This document shows, one piece after another, positions 7,058 through 13,088 of a stretch of 64,000 nt of DNA. Numbering within the stretch: the stretch's first letter is position 1; each line of letters starts with the position of its first letter. Position numbers and translations under genes: made by a program. Below the pieces are notes generated by a model. The model worked only from the letters and a program-made list of their open reading frames with translations. It ran no database searches and was not told the DNA's origin. The stretch is from Furfurilactobacillus milii (GTDB taxonomy: Bacteria; Bacillota; Bacilli; Lactobacillales; Lactobacillaceae), in the NCBI RefSeq assembly GCF_021654115.1, contig NZ_JAIWJF010000002.1, positions 62,001 to 126,000 on the forward strand, written 5' to 3'.

Positions 7058-8572
7058 TTATTTAGCAGCATTAGCAGTCGGGACATCCGCTAGGGTCCAA
7101 GAAATGGTGGCAGAGTAATGACCGCTGTTAGCCGCGTGGGTGGGATTAATTGTCAGTGTACTGCCAGATAAAAGGCTGTGAACATTAGTGTTTGGAGTTG
7201 TTGCGTTGATAACTGAAACTAGTTGGCCGTCATCTTTTAAAGTAGCCAACGATTTGTTTTGATCATTAATCAAATTCAAACTAATGCCACCTTTGTCACC
7301 TATTGGCTGATGCGTCGCCGTGTTCGTAAAGGTAGCCATCGCGGCTGTGAGTGACCAACCGGAGCTGTGTACACGAGGGTCATAAATCGATAGTAATTGT
7401 TGATCATTGCCATCATAGGTTAGCGATGTACTACCTGAGGTGTTACTAATTGATGCTAATGACACACCATGGGTAATGTTATTAACGGTGAGCGGCGAAC
7501 CATCGGCTTTGCTAAATGTAAAGTTGGGGATGGCATCTAGCGTTAATTGACCACCGGGATTCACAAACAAACGGGCTTTATTTGTATTCGTTTGCTGGTC
7601 AGCCCCACTGAATCCGATGACTGCGTAATACTGTGTTTGAGTCTGTGCAGCGCTAGTGTTTTTGACCGTTAACATACCATTTTGCATGCCGTCTGGAGAC
7701 GCTGAAATACTTACGTTAGGTCCGTTAGTGACGGGCTTGTCTGATCCATGAGGCGGTATTTGATGCCATCCGACGACGTAGGCTGATTTAGGAAATCCTT
7801 TGATGATGAAAGAAGCATCTGATCCTTCATTAACAAGTTTGTCCTGTAGTGCGCCGATATACACAACAGTACTAGCGGTAATGCCATTTGAAGTGGTGGC
7901 TGTAACCGTTACCTTGCCATATTGATTCAAATCTGAGGTTGCGGTTAGCTTGCCAGTGGTGGCGTCGATGGTGGCTAACTGTGAATTATCAACAGACCAT
8001 TTGATTGAATCCGTTGCATTAGCCGGCGTTAGCGTTGCCAGAATGTTTTCTGAATTAGCATTTGGTAGCGTATCGCTTTCACCGGCGATGGATAAGGCAG
8101 TGGCATGCACGTCCTGCGTGGAGATCGTTACTTTGGCAACCTTGGACCAGTAAACGGAAGAAGTTAAAAATCCATGAATTGTCACTGAAATTTGATAATA
8201 AAATGTAGCTACGTGATCAACGTGTTGATGGGTTTTAAAGCTGCCTGACAATGCATTGCCATCATCCTGGGCTTTTTTCCAATTTTGACCATCCTCACTA
8301 ATATACCAAGATGCTGTTACGTTATCGGTCCAGGGATCAAAAAGAGACTTAATAGCTGTAAACGAAAGTTGATAGTCTTTGTCTGATACGGTGTTCAGAC
8401 TGAGGGGTTGTTGCGTGAAGCCACCGACAAACACAAATCTACCAACTGAAAATGGATCCACACTCGGTGTGCCCTTGGGGACAACATTGTCGTCTGCATG
8501 ACCAGTAATGGGTAACAATAGTGACACTAATATGAACATGATGATACTCAACCACACGCGTTTAAACTTCAT
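7058..8572 (-). CDS. WxL-domain cell-surface protein with a bacterial Ig-like domain
   Basis: A secreted protein of 504 residues with a signal peptide ending near GHADD. Residues about 155-245 look like a Big_2-type Ig domain (WSVDNSQLATIDATTGKL). The C-terminal part is a WxL domain: the first WxL motif is GWSLTAA, the second ATISWTLADVPTA just before the C-terminus. WxL domains bind peptidoglycan non-covalently. It is the last gene of a three-gene minus-strand cluster with a DUF916 protein and a second WxL protein, the usual Csc-type surface-complex composition. Its ligand is unknown. Confidence 0.85.
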   Translation of the reverse strand: MKFKRVWLSIIMFILVSLLLPITGHADDNVVPKGTPSVDPFSVGRFVFVGGFTQQPLSLNTVSDKDYQLSFTAIKSLFDPWTDNVTASWYISEDGQNWKKAQDDGNALSGSFKTHQHVDHVATFYYQISVTIHGFLTSSVYWSKVAKVTISTQDVHATALSIAGESDTLPNANSENILATLTPANATDSIKWSVDNSQLATIDATTGKLTATSDLNQYGKVTVTATTSNGITASTVVYIGALQDKLVNEGSDASFIIKGFPKSAYVVGWHQIPPHGSDKPVTNGPNVSISASPDGMQNGMLTVKNTSAAQTQTQYYAVIGFSGADQQTNTNKARLFVNPGGQLTLDAIPNFTFSKADGSPLTVNNITHGVSLASISNTSGSTSLTYDGNDQQLLSIYDPRVHSSGWSLTAAMATFTNTATHQPIGDKGGISLNLINDQNKSLATLKDDGQLVSVINATTPNTNVHSLLSGSTLTINPTHAANSGHYSATISWTLADVPTANAAK

Positions 8573-8593
8573 GTTGATTTACAGTCCTTATCC

Positions 8594-9628
8594 TTACTTT
8601 TTCGGGTGGCGACGACTGCCCATAAGATAACCAACGATTATGAGAATGAGCGCGCCGAGTACGCTAAGCAAAATGTATAGCCAAGTCCAGTTGTGGTGAA
8701 TGTTCATATGCCGATTGACTTGACGCGCTGTTTGGCGGGTGACTGTGAAGTGGCGGCTTAAGTGCCAAATGTGTTTGCCTGATTTAGCGGTGAGTTTAAA
8801 CGTGTAGTGACCTGGTTTTAACCGGTGCTTTGTAACGGGAACACCAAAATTAAAACTTGTTAGCGGCGCCATTTCGTAATGCTTCTTGGTAGTTTCGTAC
8901 AGTAGATGCGAATTGCCGCGACGGTACACCTGTCCTGTGACAGTCATTTCGCCAAACATCACTGGTTGTGTATTGGCCACACTGGCGGTCACCTGCGATT
9001 GATAATGGTTGGTACTTGTTTTAATTTGATTCAACTTTAAATCTGGTGCTAACGTCAATGAGTCCGTTTCCTGTAAATTGACTCCCAAAGTCATGGCATA
9101 GTGGTTATTAATGCGGAAGTTTTTGCCGCTGGACAGCTGTTGTGCATGCTTATCGGTTACGTAAAAGGCGCCGACAATTTGACCCTTGAGTTGTTTGGCT
9201 GGTGTTTTAAGGACAAACGTAACGGGTTTAGCTTCATGGGGTTGAAGGGCCACATTGGCACCAGCACTGACTAAATCCGTAAAGGTATTATGTCCTGCGG
9301 GCTGCCGCTTTTTGTTAGGACTGTAGCTAATCTGACCGTTATCGCCGGTCCATGCGTTTGTCGGTATCACGCTCAACGTGCGTGCTTGCGATGAGGTGTT
9401 AGCGACAATTAGTGTCAACCGTTGCTCTAAAGACGGGTGAACCTTTAGATCGAAGTAGCTGACACTTTTATCGATTTGGTTATCAGGAATTTCAGCACGG
9501 ACGGTAAAACCAGCGCCATTGCCAGTAGATGCTGCATTAACTGACGCCAGCGATAGTAAGAGGACGGCGAATAATGAAGCAAGTAATAATCCGAAATAAT
9601 GTGTTCGATTAGGGGATAAACCGGACAT
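8594..9628 (-). CDS. DUF916/DUF3324 membrane-anchored partner of WxL proteins
   Basis: 344 residues: a signal peptide (about 1-33), a DUF916-like region with YFDLKVHPSLEQRLTLIVAN, a DUF3324-like second half, then one transmembrane helix (about 318-336) and a short basic tail SRRHPKK. ATG follows AAAGGAG. Proteins of this architecture are always found beside WxL proteins and are thought to anchor them; partners flank it here on both sides. The spacing of 21 nt to the next gene supports cotranscription. Confidence 0.85.
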   Translation of the reverse strand: MSGLSPNRTHYFGLLLASLFAVLLLSLASVNAASTGNGAGFTVRAEIPDNQIDKSVSYFDLKVHPSLEQRLTLIVANTSSQARTLSVIPTNAWTGDNGQISYSPNKKRQPAGHNTFTDLVSAGANVALQPHEAKPVTFVLKTPAKQLKGQIVGAFYVTDKHAQQLSSGKNFRINNHYAMTLGVNLQETDSLTLAPDLKLNQIKTSTNHYQSQVTASVANTQPVMFGEMTVTGQVYRRGNSHLLYETTKKHYEMAPLTSFNFGVPVTKHRLKPGHYTFKLTAKSGKHIWHLSRHFTVTRQTARQVNRHMNIHHNWTWLYILLSVLGALILIIVGYLMGSRRHPKK

Positions 9629-9730
9629 ACAAACACTCCTTTAATATAGTTGGCATTGCACTGAAACCCGTTTTGTCTGAGGACAAAACGGGCACGGTGA
9701 GTTGTTTAAGAGGTAGTGTAAATAAAAGAG

Positions 9731-10480
9731 TTAGGCTTTTGGCGCGTTAGCAGTAGGAACGTTAACCAAATTCCAGTATAAAGTGCCTTGATAAACACCC
9801 GTTGCGACATTAGTTTGTTTGCTGATGGTGAGACTATCACTCTTGGTGTCTGCGTAAAGTGCTTCGTTGAAGCCTTGACCGGTACCCTTATCAGCCGTCC
9901 AAATGGCGGTTTCTTGAGTGCCAGTGCTATTATCGTTTATTGATGATGCAGTAAGCGTGATTGCATTTGGTTTGGCAACGTCTCTATCGCCTTTTGAACT
10001 GGTTGCATTTAGTGCCAGTTTTGCATTTGCAATGGTGTCAGAACTTTTAGTGTTTTTGAATTGGCCTAGTGAGGTCATCAGCTTCCAGCCATTGTTCGTG
10101 CCAGTGTAGTCGGCAACGTCAAGTTTACCGTTGTTGTTACCATCAAAATTGTTGGCGCTGTTCACGGTGTTATCGCTGTAATTGACAGTGACGTCACCAT
10201 TGATAATGTCTGCGACTTTGGCCGTTGACAAATTTAGGTTAGGCACGTGGTCAAGTGTTAAATCACCAGGTTTCACTTCAAATTGTGCAGTGGAGTGAGC
10301 TGAGGCGTTGCTAGTGCCATCAGCAATGAAACCTTGACCAACAGTCGTGACATTAGTGATGTTATTCGCGGCAGTACCTGGGCCATGGCTGTTGTCTGCT
10401 CCACGATCCGCGCTTACCGTGGCAGTGCTAAGCGTCAGTACTGCGAGGGTTGAAAAGAAGAATAAAGTTACCTTATGCAT
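9731..10480 (-). CDS. Small WxL-domain surface protein
   Basis: 249 residues, essentially a signal peptide plus one WxL domain: GWKLMTSLGQF carries the first motif and LYWNLVNVPTANAPKA the C-terminal one. The last residues are near-identical in type to those of the larger WxL protein in the same cluster. ATG 10480 follows CGGAGG. It is the promoter-proximal gene of the cluster. No LPXTG-anchored small protein, common in other csc clusters, is visible here. Confidence 0.85.
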   Translation of the reverse strand: MHKVTLFFFSTLAVLTLSTATVSADRGADNSHGPGTAANNITNVTTVGQGFIADGTSNASAHSTAQFEVKPGDLTLDHVPNLNLSTAKVADIINGDVTVNYSDNTVNSANNFDGNNNGKLDVADYTGTNNGWKLMTSLGQFKNTKSSDTIANAKLALNATSSKGDRDVAKPNAITLTASSINDNSTGTQETAIWTADKGTGQGFNEALYADTKSDSLTISKQTNVATGVYQGTLYWNLVNVPTANAPKA

Positions 10481-11345: not shown

Positions 11346-12737
11346 TTAGTTGTTCACTAATTTGCTGTGACGAATCCCGTAGCCGAAGTAAATGAGCATC
11401 CCGAATGCAAACCAAATCAAGGAAGCCACCCAGGTTTCTAGTGGCAACCGGAATAGCAATAACATGCAGGCCAAGCCGGAAATGATTGGTAGGACAGGGT
11501 ACCATGGGACACGGAAGCCGTCTGTGTGATTGATATCCTTTCGGCGACGAAGTGGGATGACACCGAATGAGACAAAGGTGAAAGCAATCAGCGTTCCGAT
11601 GTTAACCAAGTTTGTCAGCTGTTCTAGTGGGACTAAACCAGCCATGATTGCGATAAGCACGGTGACCGTTGTCAAACTAGCAGTTGGATTACCACTTTTT
11701 TTGTTAACGTTGCCCAGCCATTTGGGCAGAAGGCCATCACGGCCAATGGAGTATACAAGGCGTGAAGAAGAGTAGATCATGGCCAGCATCATCGTGAACA
11801 TACCGGCAAGTGCACCGATTGAAACGAGGGCAGCACCCCAGTTTTGACCAACCTGTTGTAGAGCAAAAGCAACTGGATCAGCAACGTTTAAACGTTTGTA
11901 AGAAACTAGGCCAGTTAGGACGACGGAGACAGCAATATACAGGATAGAAGCGACAATCAAAGTTCCGATAATTCCAATTGGCATGTTTCGTTTGGGATTC
12001 TTAACTTCGGCAGCAGAGGCAGCGACCACGTCAAAACCTAAGAAAGCGAAAAATACTGCTGAGGCTCCCGCTAGTACACCGCCTTTGTAAGGAAAGAATG
12101 GGTGCCAGTTAGCCGGTTTTACATAAAATAGGCCAACTAGTACGAAGATTAGGATGATGACAATTTTAACGGCCACCATAATGTTTTGAACGCGTGTCGA
12201 GGTTTTCATGCCATTGCTGAGTAGCCAGGCAACGAACAGAACAATGAGGACGGCGACCAGATTAATATAAGTGCCGTGTGCAGGGTCAAACGCACCAGAC
12301 AATGCAGTGGGCATATGGATGCCAAAACCTGAAATCAACGAGTTGAAATAAGCAGCCCACCCAGTAGACACGGCGGCCACAGACAGCATGTACTCTAGGA
12401 CTAGAGCCCAGCCGAGAATCCAGCCGATAAATTGACCATAGACGACATTACCGTAAGAATAGGCGGAACCAGCGATTGGCAGGGCGGATGAAAATTCAGC
12501 GTAACACATAGCAGCTAGGCCACAAACGATGGCGGCGACCACGAAAGATAAGATAATGGCTGGACCGGATTTAGTTGCGGCGACTGTTCCGGGCAGAATG
12601 AAAATCCCAGTACCAATCACGGCACCAATGCCCAGTGCGACAAGATCCCACGCTGACATGGATTTAATTAGCCGACTGTCGGCATCAATATAGTTATCTA
12701 GTGATTCTTTTTTCAACATTTTGTCTAATATGGACAT
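11346..12737 (-). CDS. APC-family amino acid permease
   Basis: 463 residues with about 12 hydrophobic segments and the APC signature GIGAVIGTGIFILPG in helix 1 plus FFAFLGFDVVAASAAEVKNP in the middle. This is the cationic-amino-acid/YfnA-like branch of the amino acid-polyamine-organocation superfamily, importing an amino acid with protons. The Tyr/Phe-rich leader peptide upstream suggests, but does not prove, an aromatic substrate. ATG 12737 follows AAGGAG, directly behind an intrinsic terminator, so expression depends on antitermination. Confidence 0.9.
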   Translation of the reverse strand: MSILDKMLKKESLDNYIDADSRLIKSMSAWDLVALGIGAVIGTGIFILPGTVAATKSGPAIILSFVVAAIVCGLAAMCYAEFSSALPIAGSAYSYGNVVYGQFIGWILGWALVLEYMLSVAAVSTGWAAYFNSLISGFGIHMPTALSGAFDPAHGTYINLVAVLIVLFVAWLLSNGMKTSTRVQNIMVAVKIVIILIFVLVGLFYVKPANWHPFFPYKGGVLAGASAVFFAFLGFDVVAASAAEVKNPKRNMPIGIIGTLIVASILYIAVSVVLTGLVSYKRLNVADPVAFALQQVGQNWGAALVSIGALAGMFTMMLAMIYSSSRLVYSIGRDGLLPKWLGNVNKKSGNPTASLTTVTVLIAIMAGLVPLEQLTNLVNIGTLIAFTFVSFGVIPLRRRKDINHTDGFRVPWYPVLPIISGLACMLLLFRLPLETWVASLIWFAFGMLIYFGYGIRHSKLVNN

Positions 12738-12753
12738 GGCGTTTCTCCTTTTT

Positions 12754-12797
12754 AATAAAAAACTGGTATTTTCAGCCCCTCGCCGAAAATACCAGTT
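12754..12797 (-). terminator. Second leader terminator, directly before the permease start
   Basis: On the minus strand AACTGGTATTTTC pairs perfectly over 13 bp with GAAAATACCAGTT, followed by a T run, about 15 nt before the AAGGAG of the permease. Transcription must pass it for any expression. Confidence 0.8.
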
Positions 12798-12828
12798 AAA
12801 TCAGTAATCAACCTCAAATAGATTGACA

Positions 12829-12871
12829 CTAAAAAACCGTTTAGACGAAGGTCGTACAATCATCCAAACGG
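12829..12871 (-). terminator. Leader terminator 1 (attenuator)
   Basis: On the minus strand CCGTTTGGATGA (12871-12860) pairs with TCGTCTAAACGG (12848-12837) over 12 bp with two G-U pairs, followed by six Ts. Its 5' arm can instead pair with 12899-12913, so the hairpin is conditional. Confidence 0.75.
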
Positions 12872-12898
12872 TATGAGTTCATTTTAAATAAACGTTAG

Positions 12899-12956
12899 CC
12901 GAATGGATGCAAACCGGAAGTTTACCGTGCTTGCATCCAACAGTCGATGCAAGCAC
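12899..12956 (-). promoter_or_regulatory. Mutually exclusive attenuator hairpins of the permease leader
   Basis: Segment 1 (12946-12956, GTGCTTGCATC) pairs perfectly with segment 2 (12927-12937, GATGCAAGCAC). Segment 2 can instead pair with segment 3 (GGATGCAA with TTGCATCC, 12905-12912). Segment 3 can pair with the 5' arm of terminator 1 (CATCCA..CGG with CCG..TGGATG). Segment 1 begins on the last base of the leader-peptide stop codon, so a ribosome at the stop would mask it. Confidence 0.65.
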
Positions 12957-13012
12957 TAGCCAAACAGACTAAACGCGAATGCGTATGTGTTGTAGGTTAG
13001 TGATTGTGTCAT
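12956..13012 (-). CDS. Attenuator leader peptide, 18 aa, Tyr/Phe-rich
   Basis: ATG 13012-13010 follows AAGGAG by seven bases and the frame reads MTQSLTYNTYAFAFSLFG, stop TAG. Two Tyr and three Phe in 18 residues, at positions 7, 10, 12, 14 and 17, are what a sensor of aromatic aminoacyl-tRNA would show. A consensus-like promoter lies 40 nt upstream, and competing hairpins follow. The likely role is to set terminator 1 on or off by ribosome position. The alternative is chance, but the placement, Shine-Dalgarno and structure together argue against it. Confidence 0.7.
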   Translation of the reverse strand: MTQSLTYNTYAFAFSLFG

Positions 13013-13059
13013 AAACGTTCTCCTTGAAGTATGAGAAATATTCTCATTTGATGACCATA

Positions 13060-13088
13060 ACTATAACGATTTTTTTAGACATCGTCAA
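13060..13088 (-). promoter_or_regulatory. Promoter of the permease leader
   Basis: On the minus strand TTGACG (13088-13083) is separated by 17 nt from TATAGT (13065-13060). Transcription would start near 13053, about 40 nt before the leader peptide and 315 nt before the permease. Confidence 0.75.

Follow-up and report, generated by a model that had tools for sequence, protein, structure and literature searches.

The amino acid permease gene on the minus strand of the window, a 64,000-nucleotide stretch of the Furfurilactobacillus milii genome (contig NZ_JAIWJF010000002.1), is very likely controlled by a ribosome-mediated attenuator that responds to charged tRNA-Phe, or perhaps to aromatic tRNAs in general, and that belongs to an order-wide class. 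The gene (11346–12737) encodes an APC-family, BcaP-like permease, and its transcription is probably decided by a short leader peptide together with a set of alternative RNA pairings. Judging from comparative sequence evidence, we also think it likely, if with less confidence, that a single modular class of leader-peptide attenuator is shared by the Lactobacillales and a few genomes beyond the order. It would have an odd relay of five or seven segments, a finishing ribosome that masks segment 1, and an untranslated default that is ON. The codon run would vary by pathway. Phe/Tyr runs would go with aroE, TrpX-like transport, and aminotransfer, Trp runs with trpB and TrpX, and Ile runs with ilv and liv genes; there is one possible His case. 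This class would be a second codon-reading system beside the T-box and would explain two Rfam families, RF04312 and RF02863.

Promoter, Leader Peptide, and Alternative Pairings

All parts of the element lie on the minus strand, and the promoter and leader described in the original prediction were found again on re-reading the sequence. The −35 box TTGACG (13083–13088) and the −10 box TATAGT (13060–13065) are separated by a 17-nt spacer, and both boxes are invariant in six sequences from the genus. A ribosome-binding site, AAGGAG (13020–13025), precedes an 18-codon leader ORF, MTQSLTYNTYAFAFSLFG (12956–13012), which runs from an ATG at 13012 to a TAG stop codon at 12958–12956 and carries Tyr7, Tyr10, Phe12, Phe14, and Phe17.

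The leader is followed by five segments that pair in mutually exclusive ways. Segment 1 (12946–12956) pairs with segment 2 (12925–12939) in a helix of 11 bp, and the G that closes the TAG codon is the first base of both segment 1 and helix 1:2, as had been claimed. Segment 2 can instead pair with segment 3 (12899–12917; 14 pairs, one bulge). Segment 3 can instead pair with segment 4 (12860–12872; nine pairs flanking a 2x2 mismatch), which is then an antiterminator arm. Paired with segment 5, segment 4 becomes the first arm of an intrinsic terminator, a hairpin of 12–13 bp followed by TTTTTT (segment 5 and T-run, 12831–12848). The predicted pairings 1:2, 2:3, and 3:4 and the terminator 4:5 were all re-found, and they are kept in the six Furfurilactobacillus sequences. 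A second, strong terminator that the original prediction did not list (segments 6:7; hairpin 12797–12761 plus a T-run, 12757–12797) lies directly before the permease ribosome-binding site (12745–12750). Further along the minus strand (7058–10480) are three genes that, by eye, resemble a WxL/DUF916-type cell-surface cluster.

Other regulatory signals were considered. An Rfam scan of the whole window gave zero families at the gathering score, T-box included, and there was no T-box among the ten leader matches at E ≤ 10. A T-box was therefore rejected, in agreement with the earlier remark that the leader holds none. Downstream of the −10 box and ahead of the leader lies a palindrome, ATGAGAATATTTCTCAT (13031–13047), which relatives keep with minor changes. 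It was considered as a candidate operator. It has one near copy elsewhere in the genome, before a TrpX-like gene with a Trp leader, a match possibly due to chance, since the reversed control pattern is also found once on each strand. The leader's CUGUUUGG can pair with segment 5, and 8/8 pairs form in five distinct sequences; because the stretch is nearly invariant, this pairing says little.

Proposed Mechanism

In the trp, pheA, and his attenuators of Escherichia coli, segment 1 is masked by the stalled ribosome, and termination follows when the leader is not translated. The element described here resembles them in its control codons within a leader peptide, its alternative pairings, and its intrinsic terminator. 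Unlike the E. coli trp/his layout, where segment 1 overlaps the control codons, segment 1 here starts at the stop codon. With this position and an odd number of segments (five or seven), stalling or a lack of translation should therefore result in read-through. A ribosome stalled at Phe12/Phe14, or a leader left untranslated, would leave segment 1 free, and helix 1:2 would form. Segment 3 would then pair with segment 4, and terminator arm 5 would be left alone. A ribosome at the stop codon would instead cover segment 1, so that 2:3 and 4:5 form and transcription terminates. For a ribosome whose P site holds the last sense codon, the usual footprint, about 16 nt from the first base of that codon, would end on the last base of segment 1. 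The mechanism had been proposed in this form, with five segments and a finishing ribosome that masks segment 1, and as a reading of the sequence it is well supported by the conservation, compensatory changes, and match of codon to gene set out below.

Up to segment 4, the folding of the window RNA switches as this scheme requires. The free transcript cut at segment 4 folds as 1:2 and 3:4. When the 13 nt from the stop codon are masked in the transcript to segment 4, 2:3 forms and segment 4 is freed from segment 3. Once segment 5 is added, the minimum-energy fold contains 4:5 whether the RNA is masked or unmasked, and the switch must therefore depend on the order of folding during transcription. 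An automated fold test on 86 elements separates them only modestly from shuffles: a strict switch was seen in 23/86 elements vs 33/430 shuffled controls, and free was above masked in 65/86 elements.

A stop-codon ribosome could also act through the nascent peptide. In TnaC-type sensing, release at the stop codon is delayed by a free amino acid that the ribosome binds along with the leader peptide, and here such a delay would mask segment 1 when the amino acid is plentiful. The stop codon does sit at segment 1, most of the leaders listed end in G, R, S, or M, and both models require a ribosome at the stop codon for termination. We nevertheless consider this explanation improbable: runs of Phe/Tyr, Trp, or Ile, at varying positions on one kind of RNA, fit the reading of codons better than a fixed arrest peptide.

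Conservation Within the Genus

We compared six genus sequences: the window, two F. milii, F. rossiae, the MAG UBA11204, and F. siliginis. The promoter, leader, and segments are kept in all six. The C-terminal half of the leader, AFSLFG followed by the stop, is kept in 6/6, and the N-terminal half is variable. The original prediction had described a Tyr/Phe-rich leader, and the Phe part of that description holds, with three Phe codons in all six leaders (translated by eye, then confirmed). The Tyr part does not. Tyr7 is His in 4/5 relatives and is not preserved in F. siliginis, and Tyr10 is lost in 2/5 (UBA11204 and F. siliginis). Tyr was thus rejected as the sensed residue, and Phe is the likelier of the two because its three codons are present throughout and those of Tyr are not. 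Conservation of the leader codons and segments in relatives was also one of the two points on which the prediction had staked itself, and the Phe codons and the segments are kept in every sequence.

In ungapped comparison of the window with F. siliginis, the core is identical at 119/146 positions (81.5%) and segments 1–3 at 54/60 (90%). Identity in the same kind of comparison is 75.6% for the permease gene, 62.9% for the upstream DNA, and 59.0% for the first half of the leader, and the third positions of identical-residue permease codons agree at 161/382. Across the six sequences, the element is conserved beyond its surroundings, more than would be expected by chance. Within the genus, helices 1:2 and 4:5 have one-sided changes only, and the second terminator was not seen in F. 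siliginis.

These comparisons bear on whether the element was captured from an aromatic gene and survives as a relic, with two tandem terminators that simply hold the permease low. Five permease relatives at 63–64% identity (L005–L008, L012) have no such leader in their upstream 420 bases, which would fit a capture, and the terminators are indeed in tandem. Against this, the 90% identity of segments 1–3 stands well above the agreement at permease third positions, and we regard a relic as very improbable.

The Permease and the Probable Sensed Amino Acid

The permease is 100% identical to those of F. milii C5 and F. rossiae DSM 15814. Its best family is BcaP, a branched-chain transporter family, but its NF053761 score of 596.7 bits falls short of the equivalog cut-off of 690. 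The solved structures closest to it by sequence are 5oqt and 6f34. It is the sole such gene behind a Phe/Tyr leader among the 112 Phe/Tyr leaders described below.

The family assignment raises the question of whether the same attenuator is tuned not to Phe alone but also to leucine or branched-chain supply. Leu16 is conserved to the same degree as the last two Phe codons (kept in 6/6), and BcaP is the family to which the permease comes closest. On the other side, the leader has two Leu codons vs three Phe codons, relatives of the element before branched-chain genes carry Ile-rich leaders, and the BcaP match is below cut-off. Joint tuning seems doubtful to us, and charged tRNA-Phe is the signal that we favor.

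Compensatory Changes in the Four Helices

The original prediction had proposed covariation in relatives as a check, and two-sided changes were found in all four mutually exclusive helices. They were counted in an alignment of 28 elements, hand-chosen as distinct from 58 with a leader, in which some rows are misaligned in segment 5. Two-sided changes affect four pairs (13 cells) in 1:2, five pairs (14 cells) in 2:3, eight pairs (26 cells) in 3:4, and six pairs (22 cells) in 4:5. These cell counts, and the percentage paired, were reached in 0/500 shuffles for each of the four helices. The number of two-sided pairs was reached in 71, 19, 3, and 57 of 500 shuffles, and the number of further pair types in 279, 5, 78, and 92 (for 1:2, 2:3, 3:4, and 4:5, respectively); both measures are less open to shared descent than cell counts, and they give the helices weaker support. 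Helices 2:3 and 3:4 are the better supported, because their pair counts are seldom reached in shuffles. When the partners are offset by one to three columns, pairing falls from 96, 95, 77, and 78% to 24–45%. Since 1:2 excludes 2:3, 2:3 excludes 3:4, and 3:4 excludes 4:5, the two-sided changes support a switch and not one fixed fold.

The element thus has two features expected of a leader-peptide attenuator, in which read-through would depend on leader translation and amino acid supply. Its leader has a codon cluster, with three Phe codons in 6/6 sequences and a class-wide match of codon to gene, and its helices are mutually exclusive and include an intrinsic terminator.

Relatives Across the Lactobacillales

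A first covariance model, R1, was built from the six genus sequences. It found relatives in 59/397 family genomes and in 14/40 genera. An ATG leader with a ribosome-binding site, ending at the expected point, is present at 58/64 R1 places; as the model includes the last leader codons, the leader content at these places is biased. Examples are NNFFGSFFG, HSYYYGYYG, TSFYFWYFR, and AFSFFFR. The other six places (L101, L103, L107, L121, L128, and L129) lack a leader and look like chance matches.

A second model, R2, starts at the stop codon, and its training loci were drawn from R1. It matched 248/395 order genomes and 64/81 genera. We looked for leaders at 129 R2 places, a subset of the matches made up of 30 loci that were returned, 19 hand-picked for family coverage, and 80 taken mostly in list order, and including the window and other R2 training loci. 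A leader led by a ribosome-binding site ends at the match in 124/129. Among the 124 leaders, 110 have at least four Phe/Tyr in their last nine residues, 12 are Ile-rich, and two others are aromatic too, which gives 112 Phe/Tyr and 12 Ile leaders. The five places counted as leaderless (L154, L227, L257, L290, and L298) have an aromatic leader by eye, with no match to the ribosome-binding site. The stop codon is TAG in 28/28 aligned elements and in 106/124 of the wider set. As a control that covers Phe/Tyr-rich leaders and not Ile-rich ones, 27,740 further stop codons within these loci were examined: 1,322 end an ORF led by a ribosome-binding site, and 20 of those ORFs are Phe/Tyr-rich. The elements share descent, and the counts are not independent events.

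The class-wide search matched 34/398 genomes at E ≤ 0.001, of which five lie outside the order. In each of these five, an aromatic leader lies ahead of a gene that reads as aromatic-pathway, aminotransferase, transketolase, or TrpX-like (genes named by eye). One of the outside genomes (G838) has two strong members (L303 and L321), before aminotransferase-like and transketolase-like genes, which it possibly acquired by horizontal transfer.

Peptide-dependent attenuators had been called rare in the Lactobacillaceae in the original prediction. The R1 and R2 counts contradict this, as do matches to RF04312 at E ≤ 0.01 in 184/397 family genomes, 11 of them over the cut-off.

Leader Codons and Downstream Genes

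The residues that run in the leader agree with the gene that follows. Classing the genes by similarity to members of the same set with family-checked examples, the 112 Phe/Tyr leaders precede 61 genes for TrpX-like ABC proteins, 42 aroE genes (shikimate dehydrogenase), six aminotransferase genes, the one permease gene described here, and two unassigned genes. Every one of the 12 Ile leaders lies before a livJ-like (4), ilvE (3), ilvA (3), or ilvB (2) gene (L208, L209, L211, L220, L271, L274, L278, L292, L294, L295, L300, and L301). Among the assigned cases there are zero crossings between leader class and gene class. The aminotransferase and livJ-like proteins score below specific family cut-offs, and we infer their substrates from sequence similarity. 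Three TrpX-like proteins behind Phe/Tyr leaders score 313.0, 356.4, and 317.9 bits vs the TrpX cut-off of 390, and the one TrpX-like protein tested behind a Trp leader scores 468.5 bits, above that cut-off.

The Trp Branch and the Rfam Families

RF04312 (the trpB motif) aligns with the window over the full length of the model, at 36.7 bits vs a gathering cut-off of 59, and RF02863 (Enterococcus sRNA 2410) scores 20.2 bits vs a cut-off of 61. The window is below both cut-offs, and a plain filing under either family was rejected.

RF04312 resembles the window element in having 2:3, a linker, and a terminator in the same order. The model starts at segment 2 and is blind to leaders. At 28 of the best 30 RF04312 loci within the family, Trp is among the last six residues of a leader, vs 0.7% both in shuffles and at 2,718 other positions. 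The two exceptions are L047, with no leader, and L041, with a His-rich leader. Another 40 RF04312 places were read by eye, three of which repeat loci of the best 30 (together L036–L065 and L163–L202). A Trp or aromatic leader is present at 36 of them; L177, L193, and L196 have none, and L201 has another kind. The weaker RF04312 matches include members with Phe/Tyr leaders, e.g., L184, L188, L194, and L199. The genome of the window itself has a Trp leader before an OppA-like gene (L130) and, in a reading by eye of both leader and gene, a second one upstream of a TrpX-like gene (L332). The His-rich leader of L041, MFKSNVTLHHHLHR, is found where RF04312 matches upstream of a gene for a basic amino acid antiporter. 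It is a single case and possibly a His version of the element.

RF02863 exceeds its cut-off at 2/17 loci scanned, L159 (75.2 bits) and L149 (70.7 bits). Both elements lie before aroE (family-checked for L149, by similarity for L159). The RF02863 consensus takes in the end of the leader as well as the segments; it differs in being filed as a small RNA gene. From these matches, RF02863 looks like the same kind of element. The terms "2410" and "leader peptide" were not found in the text of PMC7724050.

Both families have been read in other ways. In the part of the paper available to us, the trpB motif is a riboswitch candidate for which an attenuator is left possible, and "leader peptide" is absent from the main text (Narunsky 2024, PMC11109978). 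A metabolite riboswitch or a trans-acting small RNA would be in keeping with that proposal and with the filing of RF02863, the two matches over cut-off included. Leaders led by a ribosome-binding site at 124/129 places, with codons that match the amino acid of the gene, argue against it, as do mutually exclusive helices with compensatory changes, and a terminated leader would in any case resemble a small RNA. We consider such an explanation extremely improbable.

The Second Terminator

Taking the best hairpin before a T-run as the criterion, a second terminator is present in 144/154 distinct elements. In 126 of these 144, segment 5 pairs with the first arm of the second terminator better than in all 20 shuffles, a comparison that covers the 5–6 pairing alone. 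In the window, this pairing is −13.2 vs a shuffle mean of −7.2. This suggests that the second terminator, with an arm complementary to segment 5, would extend the relay to seven segments in most members examined.

Relation to Known Attenuators

Leader-peptide attenuation itself is already known, and Firmicutes cases are published. In the portions of these papers available to us, they include a leucine-rich attenuator of ilv in Staphylococcus aureus (PMC5794164) and His attenuators of other Firmicutes (PMC9413887, PMC2965389), which share leader-peptide attenuation with the element described here and differ in genes and lineages. The available part of PMC9413887 names the T-box as the usual control for His in Lactobacillales and lists attenuators in other orders, and that of PMC2494555 mentions Tyr T-boxes in the Bacillus cereus group. 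According to the accessible text of PMC5794164, branched-chain leader peptides were earlier predicted in Lactococcus lactis and Streptococcus, and attenuators in the order are thus not unheard of. Our literature search, outside of which most subscription papers lie, found no description of the class. In the literature consulted we saw no account of an odd segment number, of a segment 1 placed at the stop codon, or of codon specificity being exchanged on a single order-wide RNA scaffold.

If the class is as we propose, its layout predicts the opposite of E. coli trp, in that loss of the start codon in the leader would switch expression on. The substrates of transporters could be predicted from the codons of their leaders. 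The nature of the trpB motif and of sRNA_2410 would be settled, and the amino acid genes of the Lactobacillales would have a widespread second codon-reading control beside the T-box.
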